DNA of 47,153 bases from Anaerolineae bacterium (GTDB lineage Bacteria > Chloroflexota > Anaerolineae > DRVO01): the NCBI GenBank assembly GCA_013178015.1, contig JABLXR010000034.1, positions 1 through 47,153 of the forward strand. Reading direction: 5' to 3'. Shown piece after piece: positions 12,844 through 33,970 of the stretch (position 1 is its first letter; each line of letters starts with the position of its first letter). The notes beneath the pieces are model-generated. The model was not told the origin of the DNA and searched no databases. It saw nothing but the letters and a program-made list of their open reading frames with translations. The position numbers and the translations under genes are program-made.

Positions 12844-15105
12844 TCACTCTCCGCCGACAGCTGCCTCGACTGGCGCGCCCTCGGCGACGACGGGCATCTC
12901 TTCCTGCTTGCTGCGCATGATCGCCCACACCACCAGGGCCAGACAGGCCAGCGAGATCACCACGGTGATGGCGGTGAAGCGCCCGCCCTCGCGCACGATT
13001 ATGGGCAGGATAAGCAGCGACACCAGGTTCACGACCTTGATCATGGGGTTCAGCGCCGGGCCGGCAGTGTCCTTCAAAGGATCCCCGACCGTGTCACCAA
13101 TGACCGAGGCCTCGTGCTCAGGGGTCCCCTTGCCGCCGAACAGCCCATCCTCGATCACCTTCTTAGCGTTGTCCCACGCCCCACCGGTGTTGGCCAGGAA
13201 CACAGCCATAAGCTGGCCAGACACGATGATGCCGGCGTTGAAGCCGCCCAGTGCCCACTCACCCATGATGAACCCAATCGCTACCGGGACGAAAATGGCA
13301 ATGATCGCCAGGCTCAGCAGCTCACGCTGAGCGGCGGTGGTGACGATGTCCACCACCCGGCCGTACTCGGGCTTGACTTTTCCTTCCATCAGGCCCGGAA
13401 TGCGGAACTGGCGCCGTACCTCGTTCACCACCAGGCCGGCCGCTCGGCCCACGGCTAGGATGGCAAGCGAGCTGAACAGGAAGGGCACCGCCCCGCCTAC
13501 CAGCAGCCCCACGAAGACGCGTGGATCTGCCAGGTCAATAGCATGCACCACCTGATCCACCGCCAACTGGCCGGCAGCCACCATCTCCCGCTGAATGATG
13601 GCGGTGTCGGTGATAAAGGACCCGAACAGCGAAACTGCTGCCAACACCGCCGAAGCGATGGCAATTCCCTTGGTGATGGCCTTGGTGGTGTTGCCCACGG
13701 CGTCGAGGTCCGTCATTATCTGGCGCGCCCGCGGGTCCAGATCGGCCATCTCAGTGATACCCTGAGCGTTGTCAGAGATGGGCCCAAATACATCCATGGA
13801 CACGTTGTTACCGGTGTGGGTCAGCATACCGATGCCGGCCATGGCTACGCCATAGAGAACGAACGTGGGATTGGGGTCACCACCGTAGATGACGATGGAG
13901 GCAAAGATAGTCAGGGCGATGATCATGAGGGCCCATACCGAGCTCTCCAGCCCCACAGCCATGCCACGCAGCAGCAGCGTCGCGGCGCCCGTCTCGGCCG
14001 AGTGCGCGATCCGCTGCACTGGCGTCCGATGGGGATGCGTGAAGTAGCTGGTGTACTTGTTGAAGCCCACCGCGAGAAGGATACCCGCCGCGGTGCTCCA
14101 GAAGACTCGCATGTCGCCGACGTAGAAGTGGGCCAGCAGTCCGAAGCTCACGGTGGAAATGACGGAGGAGAGGTCGTAGCTGTAGTCCATGGCCTTGAAG
14201 GCGTCCTCGCCTACCGGCCACCAGGACACAGCGTATGTCCCAATGATCGAGCTAACCACACCGATGCCCCGAACCAGCAGGGGGAACACGATCCAGCGCA
14301 AGTCCACCGGCCCGCCTACGGGAGACAGCGCCAGACCCAGGATCATCGCCGACACCATGGTGACTTCGTAGGACTCGAAGATATCTGCCGCCATGCCGGC
14401 GCAGTCGCCTACGTTGTCGCCTACCAGGTCGGCGATCACGGCGGCGTTTCGAGGGTCATCCTCGGGGATGCCATGCTCAACCTTGCCCACCAGGTCCGCC
14501 CCAACGTCAGCCGCCTTGGTGTATATTCCGCCGCCGACGCGCATGAACAGGGCCAGTAGGGTGCCTCCGAAACCGAACCCGAGCAGCACCTCGGGGGCGT
14601 TGGCACCGTAGAGAATGAAGATCAGGGTGCCCCCCAGCAGACCGAGGCCGTCGGTCAGCATGCCGGTCACGGTACCGGCACGGTACGAGATCCTGAGCGC
14701 GTCATGGAAGCTAGTGCGGGCCGCCGAAGCCACCCGGACGTTGCCCTGCACCGCCATGTTCATGCCCAGGAAGCCGACTGTGGCCGAGAACAGAGAGCCC
14801 ATCAGGAAGGCAGCCGCCCGACCGATGGAGATGGAGGCTTCACGGTCGGCCAATGCGGCAGTCAGGTATAGGGCTACCGTGAGAAACACAATCAGGGACA
14901 AGATGGCCCTGAACTGCCGGCGCAGATATGCGTTTGCGCCCTCGCTGATGGCGTCCGAGATCTCCTGCATCCGAGCTGTGCCTTTGTCCCATCGAAGAAC
15001 CTGGCGGGTGAGGAAAGCAGCGTATAGCATCGCTAGCAGCGCTATCCCCACTACTGCCCAGAGCCCCGTCGACTCAAAGGCAGAAGCGCCTACCACACCG
15101 TGCAT
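12844..15105 (-). CDS. hppA: Membrane-bound H+-translocating pyrophosphatase, K+-independent type
   Basis: The start was placed at ATG 15105, since AAGGAGGG lies ten bases upstream; a TTG at 15129 is in frame but sits before that site. The 753-residue product has about 16 hydrophobic segments and the catalytic DVGADLVGKVE motif (Asp200, Lys208, Glu210), followed by GDNVGDCAGMAADIFESYE and, near the C-terminus, the second acidic site GGAWDNAKK and GDTVGDPLKDTAGPALNPMIK. Such enzymes hydrolyse pyrophosphate and pump ions outward. In the family the sequence GNTTxAIxKG has Ala in K+-dependent and Lys in K+-independent enzymes; here it reads GNTTKAITKG (Lys475, Thr478), indicating the K+-independent H+ pump class. 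Confidence 0.95.
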   Translation of the reverse strand: MHGVVGASAFESTGLWAVVGIALLAMLYAAFLTRQVLRWDKGTARMQEISDAISEGANAYLRRQFRAILSLIVFLTVALYLTAALADREASISIGRAAAFLMGSLFSATVGFLGMNMAVQGNVRVASAARTSFHDALRISYRAGTVTGMLTDGLGLLGGTLIFILYGANAPEVLLGFGFGGTLLALFMRVGGGIYTKAADVGADLVGKVEHGIPEDDPRNAAVIADLVGDNVGDCAGMAADIFESYEVTMVSAMILGLALSPVGGPVDLRWIVFPLLVRGIGVVSSIIGTYAVSWWPVGEDAFKAMDYSYDLSSVISTVSFGLLAHFYVGDMRVFWSTAAGILLAVGFNKYTSYFTHPHRTPVQRIAHSAETGAATLLLRGMAVGLESSVWALMIIALTIFASIVIYGGDPNPTFVLYGVAMAGIGMLTHTGNNVSMDVFGPISDNAQGITEMADLDPRARQIMTDLDAVGNTTKAITKGIAIASAVLAAVSLFGSFITDTAIIQREMVAAGQLAVDQVVHAIDLADPRVFVGLLVGGAVPFLFSSLAILAVGRAAGLVVNEVRRQFRIPGLMEGKVKPEYGRVVDIVTTAAQRELLSLAIIAIFVPVAIGFIMGEWALGGFNAGIIVSGQLMAVFLANTGGAWDNAKKVIEDGLFGGKGTPEHEASVIGDTVGDPLKDTAGPALNPMIKVVNLVSLLILPIIVREGGRFTAITVVISLACLALVVWAIMRSKQEEMPVVAEGAPVEAAVGGE

Positions 15106-15307
15106 GACTCCATGCCCTCCTTGAACCAATTGGGTCTATTGGCCCCAACGAGCACCAAGCCCAGATCCTTGTCGTGGATCAAGCAGCACTCGCCAGCGTC
15201 CCCACCGCACAAAAAGAGAGGGAGGCCAGGCCCCACCCCCCCTAGTCGCCACTAGCTCCGTCGCTTGGCGCGCACGCCACGCGGCCGCCAGCAAGACGCC
15301 CGCGGGC
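15106..15307 (-). promoter_or_regulatory. Long 5' leader of hppA
   Basis: The transcript from the promoter at 15314-15341 would have an untranslated leader of about 200 bases, long for a single housekeeping gene. It contains a hairpin with U-run at 15211-15242, a small GATCC/GGATC hairpin near 15165-15181, and a TTGGG/CCCAA pairing near 15130-15150 just before the ribosome binding site. This layout fits an attenuator or riboswitch, but I cannot match it to a known class. The remaining bases up to 15585 hold the promoter and nothing else I can support. Confidence 0.35.
15211..15242 (-). terminator. Terminator-like hairpin inside the hppA leader
   Basis: On the minus strand an eight-pair stem (AGGGGGGG with CTCCCTCT, two G-U pairs) is followed directly by CTTTTT. 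It lies between the promoter and the coding region of hppA, so if functional it would act as an attenuator. Confidence 0.4.
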
Positions 15308-15313
15308 GCCCGC

Positions 15314-15341
15314 ATTATATCACAGCGGCCCACCCTGTCAA
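15314..15341 (-). promoter_or_regulatory. Consensus sigma70 promoter of hppA
   Basis: On the minus strand a perfect TTGACA (15336-15341) and a perfect TATAAT (15314-15319) are separated by 16 bases. The site is about 210 bases upstream of the hppA start codon. Confidence 0.8.
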
Positions 15342-15585
15342 AACGCTTTTGAGCCTTCAGGGCCCGGGGTGCATCCTTGCCAAGTGGATCCACAGTGGCG
15401 AAGGTGCGAGGGGTAGAGGCCCCCTAGGAGCGCTGCCTAGGCTATAGCTCCGCCAGTGCGGACGTGGGCTTCTCGAGGGAGGACTAGAGGCGATGCCTCG
15501 CCCTGAGTGCCTCCCTGCCCCAGGCCAAGATCCACGCCTATCGCCGCCCGCCCACTGTCGCCCGAAGCCCGCGCGGCACTGCCGG

Positions 15586-29779: not shown

Positions 29780-30817
29780 CTACCTCTGCCTAGATCTCCT
29801 CGAGGCGGCCACCGCCGCCAGACCGGCGAAGCCCGCGGCGGCCAGCAACAGCCCCAAACCACCTCCACCAGACACCGCCGCCACCTCAACTTCCGGCGTC
29901 ACGTACAGAGCAGGCGGCAAGGTGGCCGCAGCGCTGGCCAGCACCCACACTTGCGGCGAGGGCCTGGGCGTGGCGGTCGGCGGCAGGGACGGCGCCGTCT
30001 GGCTTCGCCGCGGGCCCGCAGTCTGCGTCGCTGTCACGACGGCCTCAGGTGTTGCCGTCGAAGTGGTGGTGGGCGGCGACGTCTCGCTTGGCACAGGTGA
30101 TCCACTCGGCGAAGGTGGCATCTCCGGTGCCTGCGTCGAGGGCGAGACGGGTTCCGACGTGGCCGTGGGCGCCAGAGCCAGAGTGGCCTGAGGCTCCATC
30201 ACCGGCACCGACTCGTCCCGCACCAGGCTGACCGCGTCCAGGAAGGCCTGATCCGCTCCGTACGTCCGTGGGTTGTTCACCCGAACGAACACGGTGATCC
30301 GATCCGACTCTGCCACCGCACGCGCCCGCAACTCCGGGTTGGTGCGCTTCTTCTCCCACACTTCCGGGCTCCACACCACCGAAGGCGACTGCGGGTCCGT
30401 GCCACCCCAGGGGTCTATTCCCACGGCCCGGCCCATCTCCGGGCCCTCCGACTGGAAGACGGCCCAGCCGATGAAGGCCTCGTAGGTTGCGCCCAACTCC
30501 ACCCCGCTCACCTCCTGGTAGATGCCAGCAACGAAGCCCTCCCCGTCGCTCCAGATCCTGAGCGCTGGTTGCTTGGGAGTATCCGAGGCGGCGTCGAACG
30601 CCGGGTGCCCAGCGATCACGAACGGCCACCAGCCCGTAGGCACCTCGCCGCCAGGAGCGGCGCCGAAGGTGTCGAACTGGCAGTTGAAGGTCAAGTTGGC
30701 GGGGCTCTCGCAGGGGTCCTCGGCCGCCGCACCGCACCACCAGGCGATAGCCGCCACGGCGACCACCAGGAGGACCAGCCCAGACCTAGCTACGAAGGTT
30801 CCAGGCATCGCTCTCAT
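29780..30817 (-). CDS. Secreted, cell-surface anchored protein with Ser/Thr/Pro-rich stalk
   Basis: The start is uncertain: ATG 30817 or 30808 places the hydrophobic signal (VARSGLVLLVVAVAAIAWW) near the N-terminus, while the longest frame begins at 30859 inside lipM. After signal cleavage a globular domain of about 180 residues follows, starting DPCESPANLTFNCQFD and containing ATYEAFIGWAVFQ and ITVFVRVNNPRTYGADQAFLDAVSLV, a beta-sandwich (carbohydrate-binding-like) pattern. Then comes a ~100-residue linker rich in Pro, Thr and Ser, and a C-terminal Gly-rich transmembrane segment with a basic end (SRRSRQR). That is the architecture of a surface protein held by a C-terminal anchor. It is 11 bases upstream of the candidate selenoprotein, also exported. 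Confidence 0.65.
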   Translation of the reverse strand: MRAMPGTFVARSGLVLLVVAVAAIAWWCGAAAEDPCESPANLTFNCQFDTFGAAPGGEVPTGWWPFVIAGHPAFDAASDTPKQPALRIWSDGEGFVAGIYQEVSGVELGATYEAFIGWAVFQSEGPEMGRAVGIDPWGGTDPQSPSVVWSPEVWEKKRTNPELRARAVAESDRITVFVRVNNPRTYGADQAFLDAVSLVRDESVPVMEPQATLALAPTATSEPVSPSTQAPEMPPSPSGSPVPSETSPPTTTSTATPEAVVTATQTAGPRRSQTAPSLPPTATPRPSPQVWVLASAAATLPPALYVTPEVEVAAVSGGGGLGLLLAAAGFAGLAAVAASRRSRQR

Positions 30818-31601
30818 ATTTGGTCTGGGCGAGCCCCGAAGCGCGTCTGAGCTCGTCACGGGTCAGCGGAGCCTCTTCCCAGGTGATGCCCAGGGTTAGG
30901 GCCAGACCCCGAGCCAGCGCGTCCACCACTTCGTCGAAGCCAGCGGTGCGCCCCAGGGCCTGCGCCACCGTGGCAGCACGCTGCCGCAGCAAATCCCGGG
31001 CCCGTTCCCTCTCCTCCTTGGGCAGCTTCAGGAAATCCACCACCTCCCCTACGTCGCCCGAGAGAGGAATGGATCCGTGCTGCAAGACCCCATCGCCGCG
31101 TCTCCACTGGGCGCTCCCCACCAACTTGCGGCCGGCCGCCGTGAGCTCGTACCGCGACGGGGCATCGAAGCAGGCGGCGGAGGTGCCTCCCACCGTCACG
31201 GCGTTCCGCTCGTCCGACACCGGAAGGCCCAGTAGCGATAGCCCGCACCGAAACCCGGCGCTAAGCCGCCGGTACGACTCCAGAACTCCCCCGGCCATCC
31301 GCCAGTCCGCCGCCGGTGCGGCGATGCAGTAGGTCACCTCGTCGCGGTGCAGCACGGCGCGACCGCCACTGGGGCGCCGGACGAACCCCCAGCCTCGGCG
31401 GGCCAGGGCGGCGAGATCGAACCCCTGCGCCGTCTGCGAATAGCCGATGCTCAAGCACGTAGGTCGCCACCGATAGAATCGCAACGTGGGCGGTGAGTCG
31501 CCTCGTTCTGCCGACTCCAGAACGGCTTCGTCCAGACCCATGTTCATGGCCCCAGAGAACTCCCCATCCCGGATCAGCCGCCAGCAAGCGTGGTCAGACA
31601 A
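30786..31601 (-). CDS. lipM: Octanoyltransferase LipM (biotin/lipoate ligase fold)
   Basis: The 271-residue protein starts with TTG overlapping the radical SAM gene by eight bases. Motifs of the family: LRFYRWRPTCLSIGYSQ (about 41-57), RRPSGGRAVLHRDEVTYC (about 75-92), ACFDAPSRYELTAAGRKLVGSAQWRR (about 141-166) and VLQHGSIPL. The conserved Cys in ACFDAPS matches the acyl-thioester cysteine of LipM, which distinguishes it from lipoate ligase LplA and from LipB. LipM moves octanoate from acyl carrier protein to a lipoyl domain. Together with the adjacent radical SAM protein and dihydrolipoyl dehydrogenase, this is a lipoyl-cofactor cluster. Confidence 0.85.
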   Translation of the reverse strand: MSDHACWRLIRDGEFSGAMNMGLDEAVLESAERGDSPPTLRFYRWRPTCLSIGYSQTAQGFDLAALARRGWGFVRRPSGGRAVLHRDEVTYCIAAPAADWRMAGGVLESYRRLSAGFRCGLSLLGLPVSDERNAVTVGGTSAACFDAPSRYELTAAGRKLVGSAQWRRGDGVLQHGSIPLSGDVGEVVDFLKLPKEERERARDLLRQRAATVAQALGRTAGFDEVVDALARGLALTLGITWEEAPLTRDELRRASGLAQTKYESDAWNLRS

Positions 31602-32556
31602 CGCCGGCCTCGACCAGTTCTTTCAGTTGCGCCAGCCCGCTCGTCAACATAGCTTCGCGGGTCTCCTCCTGGGTCAGAGGGCGCGGGTAGTTGTAGAGGT
31701 CGCCGCCCGGGCGCTCATTGTAGTAGGGCCGGTTGCAGCCAGGGCAGCCGGATGTCTGGAACGCCATTCCATCGAGGAGGTGGCCGGCGGCCCGCTCCGG
31801 CAGGCGAGCCAGACGCCCCTCAGCATCGAAATCGCAATCGCCTGCTCGCACCACTCCGAGCGCGATCAGGTAAGCAGCAATCTGCACCCGGCGATAGCTG
31901 GGTAGCGGGGGCTGCCCGCTTCCGGCGAGGCGAGTTCCGGGCACCGGGCAGAAGGCGAACAGCCCCACCGTTGCCCCCAAGTCAGCGTAGAGCTGGGCCG
32001 CTTCCACCAACTCCTTCTCGCTCTCCCCTAGGCCGGCAATGAGGTGAACGGCAAGCCGCCCCGGGTGGTTGTGCGCGACGTGCTCGATCAGGTCGCGATA
32101 GAGCCGCCATCCGCCGCCCTTGACGGCGCCAAAGATCGCCGCGGTGGCAGCGTCCACGCCGAACCCGATGTGATCCACGCCCGCCTCGATCAATGCGTCA
32201 GCGGCCCGCGGAGTCGGGGGCAAAACCGACACATCCACCGGCAGCGCCAGGGCCTGCTTCAGCTCGCCAACGAGGGCGACAAGCCGATCGAAGGCGCCGG
32301 CCGCGGCAGTGCATTGCAGACACACCCTCTGGAACGCGCCCTCGCGCTCTCTCAGCGCATGCAGAACGTCCCGGACGGGGAAAGGGGGCCAGGAGACGCG
32401 GGAGAGCATGTCTTCGGGGCCCGTGCTGGAGCGTGCCTGAGCGCAGAAGCCGCAATCCCGCTCACAGCGCCCGCCGACCATCAGGTACGCCGTCGTGGGC
32501 GCTACTGTCAGCGGTATCCGGCACAATTCCAGCACGCTCGCGGTGCCCGCGGACAC
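31594..32556 (-). CDS. Radical SAM protein, probable alternative lipoyl synthase subunit (LipS-like)
   Basis: The GTG start lies 13 bases after lpd. The radical SAM cluster motif is C-x3-C-x2-C (CERDCGFCAQ, Cys31, 35 and 38). The barrel follows with VCLQCTAAAG, VDVSVLPPTP, GVDHIGFGVDAA and HLIAGLGESEKELVEAA. The C-terminus has SGCPGCNRPYYNERPGGDLYNYPRPLT, a cysteine-containing tail that could bind an auxiliary cluster. Canonical LipA has different N- and C-terminal cysteine motifs and is not what is seen here. Placement between lpd and lipM supports sulfur insertion into octanoyl groups, as by LipS1/LipS2. Only one such gene is present, so the partner, if needed, is elsewhere. Confidence 0.7.
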   Translation of the reverse strand: MSAGTASVLELCRIPLTVAPTTAYLMVGGRCERDCGFCAQARSSTGPEDMLSRVSWPPFPVRDVLHALREREGAFQRVCLQCTAAAGAFDRLVALVGELKQALALPVDVSVLPPTPRAADALIEAGVDHIGFGVDAATAAIFGAVKGGGWRLYRDLIEHVAHNHPGRLAVHLIAGLGESEKELVEAAQLYADLGATVGLFAFCPVPGTRLAGSGQPPLPSYRRVQIAAYLIALGVVRAGDCDFDAEGRLARLPERAAGHLLDGMAFQTSGCPGCNRPYYNERPGGDLYNYPRPLTQEETREAMLTSGLAQLKELVEAGVV

Positions 32557-32569
32557 CCCGACGCGCCGC

Positions 32570-33970
32570 TCAGACTCGGCGATAGTGGATCCCCTCCCCG
32601 CAGACGGCCGCCGTTGCCGCCTCCATCAGGCATTCCGATAGCGTCGGGTGCTGGTGCATAGTACTGGCCAGGTCGGATGCGCTTAGACCAGCTTTCACCG
32701 CCAGCGCCCCTTCGCCGATCAGCTCACTGGCGTGAGCCCCCATCATGTGCACGCCCAAGACCCGCCCCGTCTCGCTGTCGTACACTAGCCGGACTAGGCC
32801 CTCCTCCTCGCCCATGGTCAGTGCCCGCCCGCTAGCCGATAGCGGGAAACGAGCCACGGCCGGGCTGTAACCGGCAGCCTTGGCCTCGGCCTCTGTCAGG
32901 CCGACTCCGGCGATCTCTGGGTCAGTGAAGACGCAGTTGGGGACCGCCAGGTAGTCTATCTCCCTGTCCCCTCCCAGAGCGTTCTCGGCCGCTACCATGC
33001 CTTCGTGTGAGGCGACGTGGGCCAGCATCCAGCCTCCTACTACGTCACCAGCGGCGTATATGCCGGGCACGCTGGTGCGCAGGCGCGAGTCCACCCGGAT
33101 GAAGCCACCGCCGTCCGTCTCTACGCCTACCTCCTCCAGCCCCAGGCCCTGCGTCACCGGAGTCTGGCCCGTTGCTAGGAGGATGGCGTCGGCGTCCACG
33201 TGGGCTGTCTGGCCGTGGGCGCTATAGTGCAGCCTGAGCCTCCCTTCCACGGTCTCGATGCGATCGAACTCGAGGCCAACCGTGATACTCAGTCCCCTGC
33301 GCGCGGCCAGGGAGCGATACCGGCGGGCCAACTGGGGATCTACCGACTTGAGGAAAGTGCGCCGGCCCAAAACCGTGACCTGGCTACCCAGGTGGTGGAA
33401 GATGGTGGCCATTTCCATGCCCACCACGCTAGCGCCAACCACGACCAGCCGCCGCGGCAGCTCCTGCAGCCCAAGCAGCTGACGCGAGTCGAGCACGCCG
33501 GGCAGCTCGATGCCCGGCAGCGGCGGGCGCGCAGCCACCGAGCCGGTAGCGATCAGCGCGCTGCTGAATGATAGCTCCCTCGTTGAGCTGTCCGGTAGCC
33601 GCACCGCTGCCCGATCGGGAGCCACCAGGCGAGCTTCACCTGCCACCACCTCGACGCCCCGGGCATCCAGCAGCTCGCGGACCGATCCCACGATGCGAGA
33701 GACAATGGCATCCTTGCGTGCCATCACCGCCGCGAAGTCGGCCCGGACGCTGCCTTCGACGACCAGTCCATACCGGCTCGCCTCTCGCATCTTCCGGAAG
33801 AGGGTGGCGCTCTCCACCAGGGCCTTGGTGGGGATACAGCCACGGTTCAGGCACGTCCCCCCTATGCACTCCTTCTCAATCAGCGCCACCCGACCGCCCA
33901 ACTGGCTGGCCCGGATGGCGGCCACGTATCCCGCCGGCCCCGCTCCGATCACTACGAAGTCATAACGCAT
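32570..33970 (-). CDS. lpdA: Dihydrolipoyl dehydrogenase
   Basis: The 466-residue flavoprotein has the FAD motif VIGAGPAGYVAAIRASQLG (residues 7-25), the redox-active disulfide GGTCLNRGCIPTKALV (about 38-53), the NAD motif VVVGASVVGMEMATIFHHLG (about 175-194), the second FAD motif VPGIYAAGDVVGG and the C-terminal HQHPTLSECLMEA with the catalytic His-Glu pair. It re-oxidises dihydrolipoyl groups of 2-oxoacid dehydrogenases or the glycine cleavage system. No E1/E2 or gcv genes are adjacent; the neighbours are lipoyl-attachment genes. It has its own promoter. Confidence 0.93.
   Translation of the reverse strand: MRYDFVVIGAGPAGYVAAIRASQLGGRVALIEKECIGGTCLNRGCIPTKALVESATLFRKMREASRYGLVVEGSVRADFAAVMARKDAIVSRIVGSVRELLDARGVEVVAGEARLVAPDRAAVRLPDSSTRELSFSSALIATGSVAARPPLPGIELPGVLDSRQLLGLQELPRRLVVVGASVVGMEMATIFHHLGSQVTVLGRRTFLKSVDPQLARRYRSLAARRGLSITVGLEFDRIETVEGRLRLHYSAHGQTAHVDADAILLATGQTPVTQGLGLEEVGVETDGGGFIRVDSRLRTSVPGIYAAGDVVGGWMLAHVASHEGMVAAENALGGDREIDYLAVPNCVFTDPEIAGVGLTEAEAKAAGYSPAVARFPLSASGRALTMGEEEGLVRLVYDSETGRVLGVHMMGAHASELIGEGALAVKAGLSASDLASTMHQHPTLSECLMEAATAAVCGEGIHYRRV

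Follow-up and report, generated by a model that had tools for sequence, protein, structure and literature searches.

A probable lipoyl-assembly operon of the LipS1/LipS2 type in an Anaerolineae genome, with lipS1 on another contig

Three adjacent genes for lipoyl metabolism

We analyzed a stretch of 47,153 nucleotides from an Anaerolineae bacterium (GenBank assembly GCA_013178015.1, contig JABLXR010000034.1; hereafter the window), which forms contig C34; the assembly has 97 contigs, totals 4.57 Mb and is 95% complete. The subject of this study is a group of three tightly packed open reading frames (ORFs) on the minus strand, which fill positions 30786-33970 exactly in the order lpdA, lipS2 and lipM. 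They encode a dihydrolipoyl dehydrogenase, a radical S-adenosylmethionine (SAM) protein and a probable octanoyltransferase. An earlier note, made from the DNA letters of the window, had placed a radical SAM gene between lpdA and a LipM-type gene at this position, and both the ORFs and the model scores confirmed this layout. The gap between lpdA and lipS2 measures 13 bases, while lipS2 and lipM overlap by 8 bases, a spacing that suggests a single transcript. The features of the cluster are as follows.

32570-33970, minus strand: lpdA, dihydrolipoyl dehydrogenase (E3 or L-protein), 466 amino acids (aa), first gene of the cluster (TIGR01350; Pyr_redox_2 and Pyr_redox_dim)
31594-32556, minus strand: lipS2, radical SAM lipoyl synthase subunit, 320 aa, predicted by homology to add the first sulfur to C8 (NF053743, ligand positions, tree)
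32443-32466, minus strand: radical SAM motif C31-x3-C35-x2-C38 of LipS2 (invariant in 39 of 39 LipS2 rows)
32320-32322, minus strand: LipS2 C79 codon, counterpart by spacing of C85 in Thermococcus kodakarensis (invariant, 39 of 39; PMC9585515)
32044-32046, minus strand: LipS2 H171 codon, counterpart by spacing of T. kodakarensis H178 (invariant, 39 of 39; PMC9585515)
31735-31746, minus strand: LipS2 C271-P-G-C274 codons, counterparts by spacing of T. kodakarensis C276 and C279 (38 of 39, one gap; PMC9585515)
30786-31601, minus strand: lipM, probable octanoyltransferase, 271 aa, with a single catalytic domain (PF21948; Cys144 before GRKLVGSAQ)

The first of these proteins passed the dihydrolipoyl dehydrogenase model TIGR01350 with 485.8 bits (cut-off 408.8).

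The radical SAM gene is lipS2

A LipS-type route to the lipoyl group had been proposed for this locus, and our searches supported this proposal and sharpened it to LipS2. The 320-aa protein scored 320.1 bits against the curated NCBI equivalog model for LipS2 (NF053743, cut-off 270), with the match covering positions 3-292 of the 292-position profile. The same protein failed the model for classical LipA (PRK05481; 15.5 bits, cut-off 203). LipA leads to the same final product as the LipS1/LipS2 pair, but it is a single protein that inserts both sulfurs.

The C-x3-C-x2-C motif noted earlier was confirmed as C31, C35 and C38, and these cysteines are invariant in all rows of an alignment of LipS2 proteins from the class loci. 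The same alignment keeps C79 and H171 in 39 of its 39 rows and C271 and C274 in 38, the remaining row having a gap. In T. kodakarensis LipS2, mutagenesis identified C85, H178, C276 and C279 as likely ligands of an auxiliary [4Fe-4S] cluster, and this cluster donates the sulfur, according to the available text of Neti et al. 2022 (PMC9585515). The equivalence between the two ligand sets was assigned by spacing and column conservation, the T. kodakarensis sequence itself lying outside the alignment. The view that the protein has no LipA-type extra cysteine motifs thus stood, but it needs a qualification, as auxiliary-cluster positions of its own are present (C79, C271, C274 and H171). The 320-aa protein also carries the C-terminal tail SGCPGCNRPYYNERPGG, which had been put forward as a family marker. 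Because C271 and C274 match the published T. kodakarensis ligands by spacing, we regard this tail as part of a known iron-sulfur site (PMC9585515), and the idea of a new marker was abandoned.

A phylogeny against LipS1 and LipS2 had been suggested as a check, and it placed the window protein with LipS2. In a tree built from 99 of 200 LipS rows, to which one row each of BioB and LipA was added, a single branch with a Shimodaira-Hasegawa-like approximate likelihood ratio (SH-aLRT) of 99 split 51 LipS1 rows from 48 LipS2 rows, with the window protein among the latter. The single BioB row (its C-terminus cut) and the LipA row sat on very long branches, and their placement is unsure.

The predicted fold of LipS2 had a mean predicted local distance difference test (pLDDT) score of 85.8, and its best structural alignment was with LipA (Z 16.4, 3.5 Å over 228 residues). 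This comparison re-examined Foldseek matches, and LipA is tied at the top with other radical SAM enzymes, HydE and methylornithine synthase among them; as many radical SAM functions lie within 1 Z of each other, the fold does not settle the function. A sequence search of solved structures returned no match for either LipS2 or LipS1 at an expectation (E) value of 0.001. Judged from its sequence, the radical SAM gene is lipS2 specifically.

LipS1 is encoded on another contig

The earlier note had seen one LipS gene here and had asked whether it works alone or with an unlinked partner. No LipS1 was found within the window, and a search of the whole genome with the window LipS2 protein gave no match besides itself. 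A LipS1 gene was, however, present on contig C44 of the same assembly (14747-15505, minus strand; L004:9721-10611), scoring 261 bits against NF053742 (cut-off 230), which answers the question in favor of an unlinked partner. The C44 protein carries the ligand set reported for LipS1, namely C47/C51/C54, H168, C240, C287 and C288, each of them invariant in 42 of 42 rows, with C287-C288 forming a CC pair near the C-terminus.

A genome search for lipA had been proposed together with that for a second LipS. The LipA N-terminal model LIAS_N (PF16881) had no match anywhere in this genome, while it matched 9 of 14 control genomes, 7 of them over the cut-off. A classical LipA elsewhere in the genome was ruled out by this result, as far as an N-terminal model reaches.

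We then compared tetranucleotide composition across seven contigs of this genome and eleven loci of other genomes. The distance to the window mean was 0.148-0.188 for chunks of C44 and 0.118-0.173 for the other contigs of the assembly; the locus of a congener lay at 0.185 and ten loci of other genomes at 0.238-0.585. Although the C44 chunks are slightly farther from the window mean than the other contigs of the genome, composition does not support the idea that C44 is a contaminant.

On C44, a ThiF/MoeB-family E1-like gene (L004:10608-11663) lies on the same strand as lipS1 and overlaps its start by 4 bases, which is possibly a link to a sulfur carrier. This gene was matched in one other class locus only (L100, 3.6 kb from LipS1) and in none of the best 80 named LipS2 loci described below, and our literature search found no text joining LipS1 and ThiF.

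We therefore read lpdA-lipS2-lipM, with a probability of roughly 0.92, as an operon for lipoyl assembly by the known LipS1/LipS2 system, whose LipS2 half lies here and whose LipS1 is on another contig. The finding belongs to a known system with the partner elsewhere in the genome and is not a new kind.

LipS1 and LipS2 occur together across the class

To place the pair in its class we used an even draw of 150 genomes, which included this genome, its congener and a family relative. LipS2 was over the cut-off in 31 of the 150, and 29 of these 31 had LipS1. A LipA match occurred in 3 of the LipS2 genomes (two of the three below the cut-off), where chance alone would give about 22 (Fisher p 1.7e-15 without correction for relatedness). 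For these counts LipS1 was scored at E 1e-20 (39 genomes, 38 over the cut-off) and LipA at E 1e-3 (105 genomes, 101 over the cut-off). A LipA match was also seen in 8 of the 39 LipS1 genomes. Ten genomes had LipS1 without an over-cut-off LipS2; the best LipS2 match reached 200-231 bits in five of them and was background only in the other five.

The two genes shared a contig in 12 of the 29 genomes, and in 17 they were on separate ones. Among the latter, G133 probably reflects a contig break, as its LipS1 sits next to a LipS2 fragment where the contig ends, and 16 of 29 is the safer figure. In G013, LipS1 and LipS2 are far from the ends of their contigs (394 kb and 456 kb), and thus their separation is not an assembly edge. 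The arrangement lpdA-lipS2-lipM without lipS1 nearby was found in 7 of the 31 genomes (L068, L071, L084, L089, L092 of this genome, L093 and L094), with only a partial lpdA match 0.7 kb off in L068 and one ORF between the genes in L084. No neighbor common to all unlinked LipS1 loci was seen; gcvH- and gcvP-like genes (identified by eye) and lpdA are recurrent neighbors of LipS1 or LipS2 in some genomes.

Two further arrangements were observed in the class. In another part of it (L107, L110, L117, L118 and L121), lpdA directly adjoins lipS1 and not lipS2. Seven loci (L097-L103) hold a second, divergent LipS2-LipS1 pair, whose LipS2 falls below the cut-off at 200-231 bits, with a ligase-like gene nearby in six of the seven and a flavin adenine dinucleotide (FAD) oxidoreductase-like gene in four. 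This pair recalls the published lipS1-lpl-lipS2-lipT clusters, and its host genomes also have LipA or the main pair.

Linkage and natural fusions in named relatives

A scan of GTDB representatives confirmed at least 406 LipS2 loci, and we examined the best 80, so that the figures lean to close relatives; some of these loci end at contig ends. The 80 loci span Chloroflexota, Bacillota, Bathyarchaeota and others. LipS1 was in the locus in 60 of them, LipM was beside or fused to LipS2 in 49, LpdA lay within 3 kb in 20, and the full lipS1-lipS2-lipM-lpdA set was found in 15. Where LipS1 was out of reach (20 loci), it was found elsewhere in 16 of the 20 genomes, in one case just below the cut-off (227 bits). 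The four remaining genomes were two family members of our organism, G025 and G060, and two Bathyarchaeota assemblies, 1.3 and 1.5 Mb in size. We took L146 and L172 to be the same records as G025 and G060, and the count of named genomes is therefore no independent check on these two.

Several of these loci carry natural fusions, as read from the assembled sequence. LipS1 and LipS2 form one ORF in 3 of the best 80 loci (L165:4533-6380, L180:1094-3172 and L185:4897-7026), and LipS2 and LipM form one ORF in 5 (L147:5968-7797, L173:5944-7815, L201:5971-7743, L203:5860-7806 and L205:5968-7758). Neither type of fusion is mentioned in the available text of Tanabe et al. 2023 (PMC10332631) or in what our literature search on LipS fusions returned.

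The third gene encodes a probable octanoyltransferase

The 271-aa protein has the lipoate/octanoate transferase fold (PF21948; 105.9 bits, cut-off 27). At E 0.01, neither this protein nor the next ORF downstream matched the ligase part LplB (NF053749). Cys144 lies in an inserted SAACFDAPS loop before the GRKLVGSAQ motif; it is present in 11 of 20 aligned rows, which include no biochemically proven LipM, and the other 9 rows have a gap. In Bacillus subtilis LipM, the active-site cysteine lies in the loop before K-x-x-G-S-A-Q. When the protein was aligned with the lipoate ligase 2ars, both loop and cysteine were absent from 2ars. The LipM cysteine is not mentioned in the available text of PMC9307952. 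Since the 271-aa protein has no LplB part and carries Cys144, we class it as a probable LipM-type octanoyltransferase.

The ORF downstream of lipM (29780-30859, minus strand) overlaps the lipM 3' end by 74 bases as called. At E 0.01 its product matched nothing in Pfam or NCBIfam, but it is matched in both family relatives (G025 and G060); by eye it looks secreted, with a linker rich in Thr and Pro and a membrane anchor at the C-terminus.

Alternative explanations

Several points weigh against an operon of the LipS1/LipS2 type with LipM. The choice of LipM over a ligase hangs on one cysteine and the missing LplB part; no LipM model matched the 271-aa protein, and its top NCBIfam matches are weak ones to ligase models, all far below their cut-offs. 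Two family members, G025 (93% complete, 530 contigs) and G060 (80% complete, 440 contigs), carry lpdA-lipS2-lipM yet have no LipS1 over the threshold and no LipA. LIAS_N spans the N-terminal part of LipA only and could overlook a LipA that is interrupted at a contig end. Finally, the assembly is fragmented into its 97 contigs, and the membership of C44 rests on binning and composition.

The ligase matches bear on whether the 271-aa protein could be a lipoate-protein ligase (LplA) dependent on free lipoate or octanoate. Its nearest solved relative is likewise a ligase, the lipoate-protein ligase A of Thermoplasma (2ars, 6.3e-18). A ligase would, however, be expected neither from the missing LplB match in the protein and the downstream ORF nor from the SAACFDAPS loop, whose conserved cysteine the ligase lacks. 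Moreover, contig C15 has a ligase-like gene of its own that includes an LplB-like part (51.3 bits, below the cut-off of 65). We consider a ligase in the third position of the cluster unlikely, and the genome seems, from its sequence, to have both a LipM and a ligase. The C15 locus (L140:8907-12669) holds in a row this ligase-like gene, a GcvH-like protein, a CCG/Fe-S (TfrB-like) protein and a nitrate-reductase-gamma-like membrane protein, a second lipoyl locus that is reminiscent of an LbpA/Hdr-like sulfur-oxidation setting.

The two family members raise another possibility, namely that LipS2 works in this family without LipS1, inserting both sulfurs itself or using another partner, and that the LipS1 on C44 was acquired late or ended up in this genome through faulty binning. 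They are the two other family members with lipS2 in our comparison, both show neither LipS1 nor LipA, and searches of G025 and G060 with the family model and with the C44 LipS1 protein gave background matches only (the best, in G025, at 20 bits). In addition, the C44 LipS1 adjoins a ThiF-like gene that was unmatched directly next to LipS1 in the other loci compared. Against this, the LipS1 partner is found in all but two of the 31 LipS2 genomes of the class sample, and by our estimate two misses are about what incomplete assemblies would produce; it is also found in 46 of 50 LipS2 genomes of the named collection. C44 is close in composition to the rest of the genome, and T. kodakarensis LipS2 halted at the 8-mercapto stage, as the available text of PMC9585515 reports. 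We regard a LipS2 independent of LipS1 as very improbable, with a small opening left because both LipS1 misses of the class sample fall in this family.

The earlier note had also named a biotin synthase placement as one to look for; the radical SAM protein would then resemble biotin synthase and insert sulfur into a different substrate. In favor of this are a weak BioB match (TIGR00433, 37.5 bits), the former annotation of LipS2 as biotin synthase (available text of PMC9585515) and the biotin synthases among the structural matches (Z 14.7 to 15.3). We ruled it out as scarcely credible: the BioB score is far under the cut-off of 225 while the LipS2 model is passed, all LipS2 auxiliary ligand positions are present, and the neighbors are lipoyl genes both here and in many relatives.

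Proposed pathway and comparison with known systems

Our model of an operon of the LipS1/LipS2 type suggests that LipM would octanoylate the lysine of lipoyl domains, those of GcvH and of the E2 subunit of 2-oxoacid dehydrogenases. LipS2 would place a sulfur on C8 by radical SAM chemistry, sacrificing its auxiliary [4Fe-4S] cluster, and LipS1 from C44 would then add the sulfur at C6. LpdA would reoxidize the dihydrolipoyl group during turnover of the complexes. The genome also encodes candidate targets: on contig C51 an E2 that has lipoyl and E3-binding domains adjoins a fused E1, and GcvH is on contig C54 beside two ORFs, whose starts, examined by eye, we take to resemble glycine decarboxylase. 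The order and the sites of sulfur insertion were demonstrated in T. kodakarensis (available text of PMC9585515), and for our organism we infer the same catalytic steps, cotranscription of the cluster and a LipM rather than a ligase.

T. kodakarensis LipS2 (TK2248; PMC9585515) shares the radical SAM motif and the auxiliary ligand positions with the window protein, and its LipS1 partner (TK2109) is likewise encoded elsewhere, as the tag numbers are far apart. Unlike in T. kodakarensis, lipS2 of the window sits between lpdA and a LipM-type gene, and its function is a prediction from sequence. Bacteria that combine LipS1/LipS2 with LipM are described in the available text of Tanabe et al. 2023 (PMC10332631), with Schekmanbacteria, Synergistota and Thermotogota as examples. 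This combination, which is also the one seen here, implies sulfur insertion after octanoylation by a transferase. The Chloroflexota in that text have a rearranged lipS2-lplA-lplB-lipS1 order, unlike the window, and its main text contains no mention of lpdA, dihydrolipoyl dehydrogenase or dihydrolipoamide dehydrogenase. Two Bacillota loci, from Desulfotruncus arcticus (L161) and Sporomusa ovata (L195), have the same genes adjacent on one strand. There, lipS1 lies inside the cluster and lpdA comes last, whereas the window cluster starts with lpdA and its lipS1 lies on a different contig.

The linkage of the LipS genes and their fusions are compatible with a relay in which the octanoyl domain passes from LipM to LipS2 and on to LipS1. 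The fusions also offer single-chain proteins for structural work on enzymes that have no solved relative at E 0.001. Annotation from contig C34 alone would miss the second half of the pathway, and, as a split between lipS1 and lipS2 is common in the sampled genomes of the class, the pair is to be sought genome-wide.

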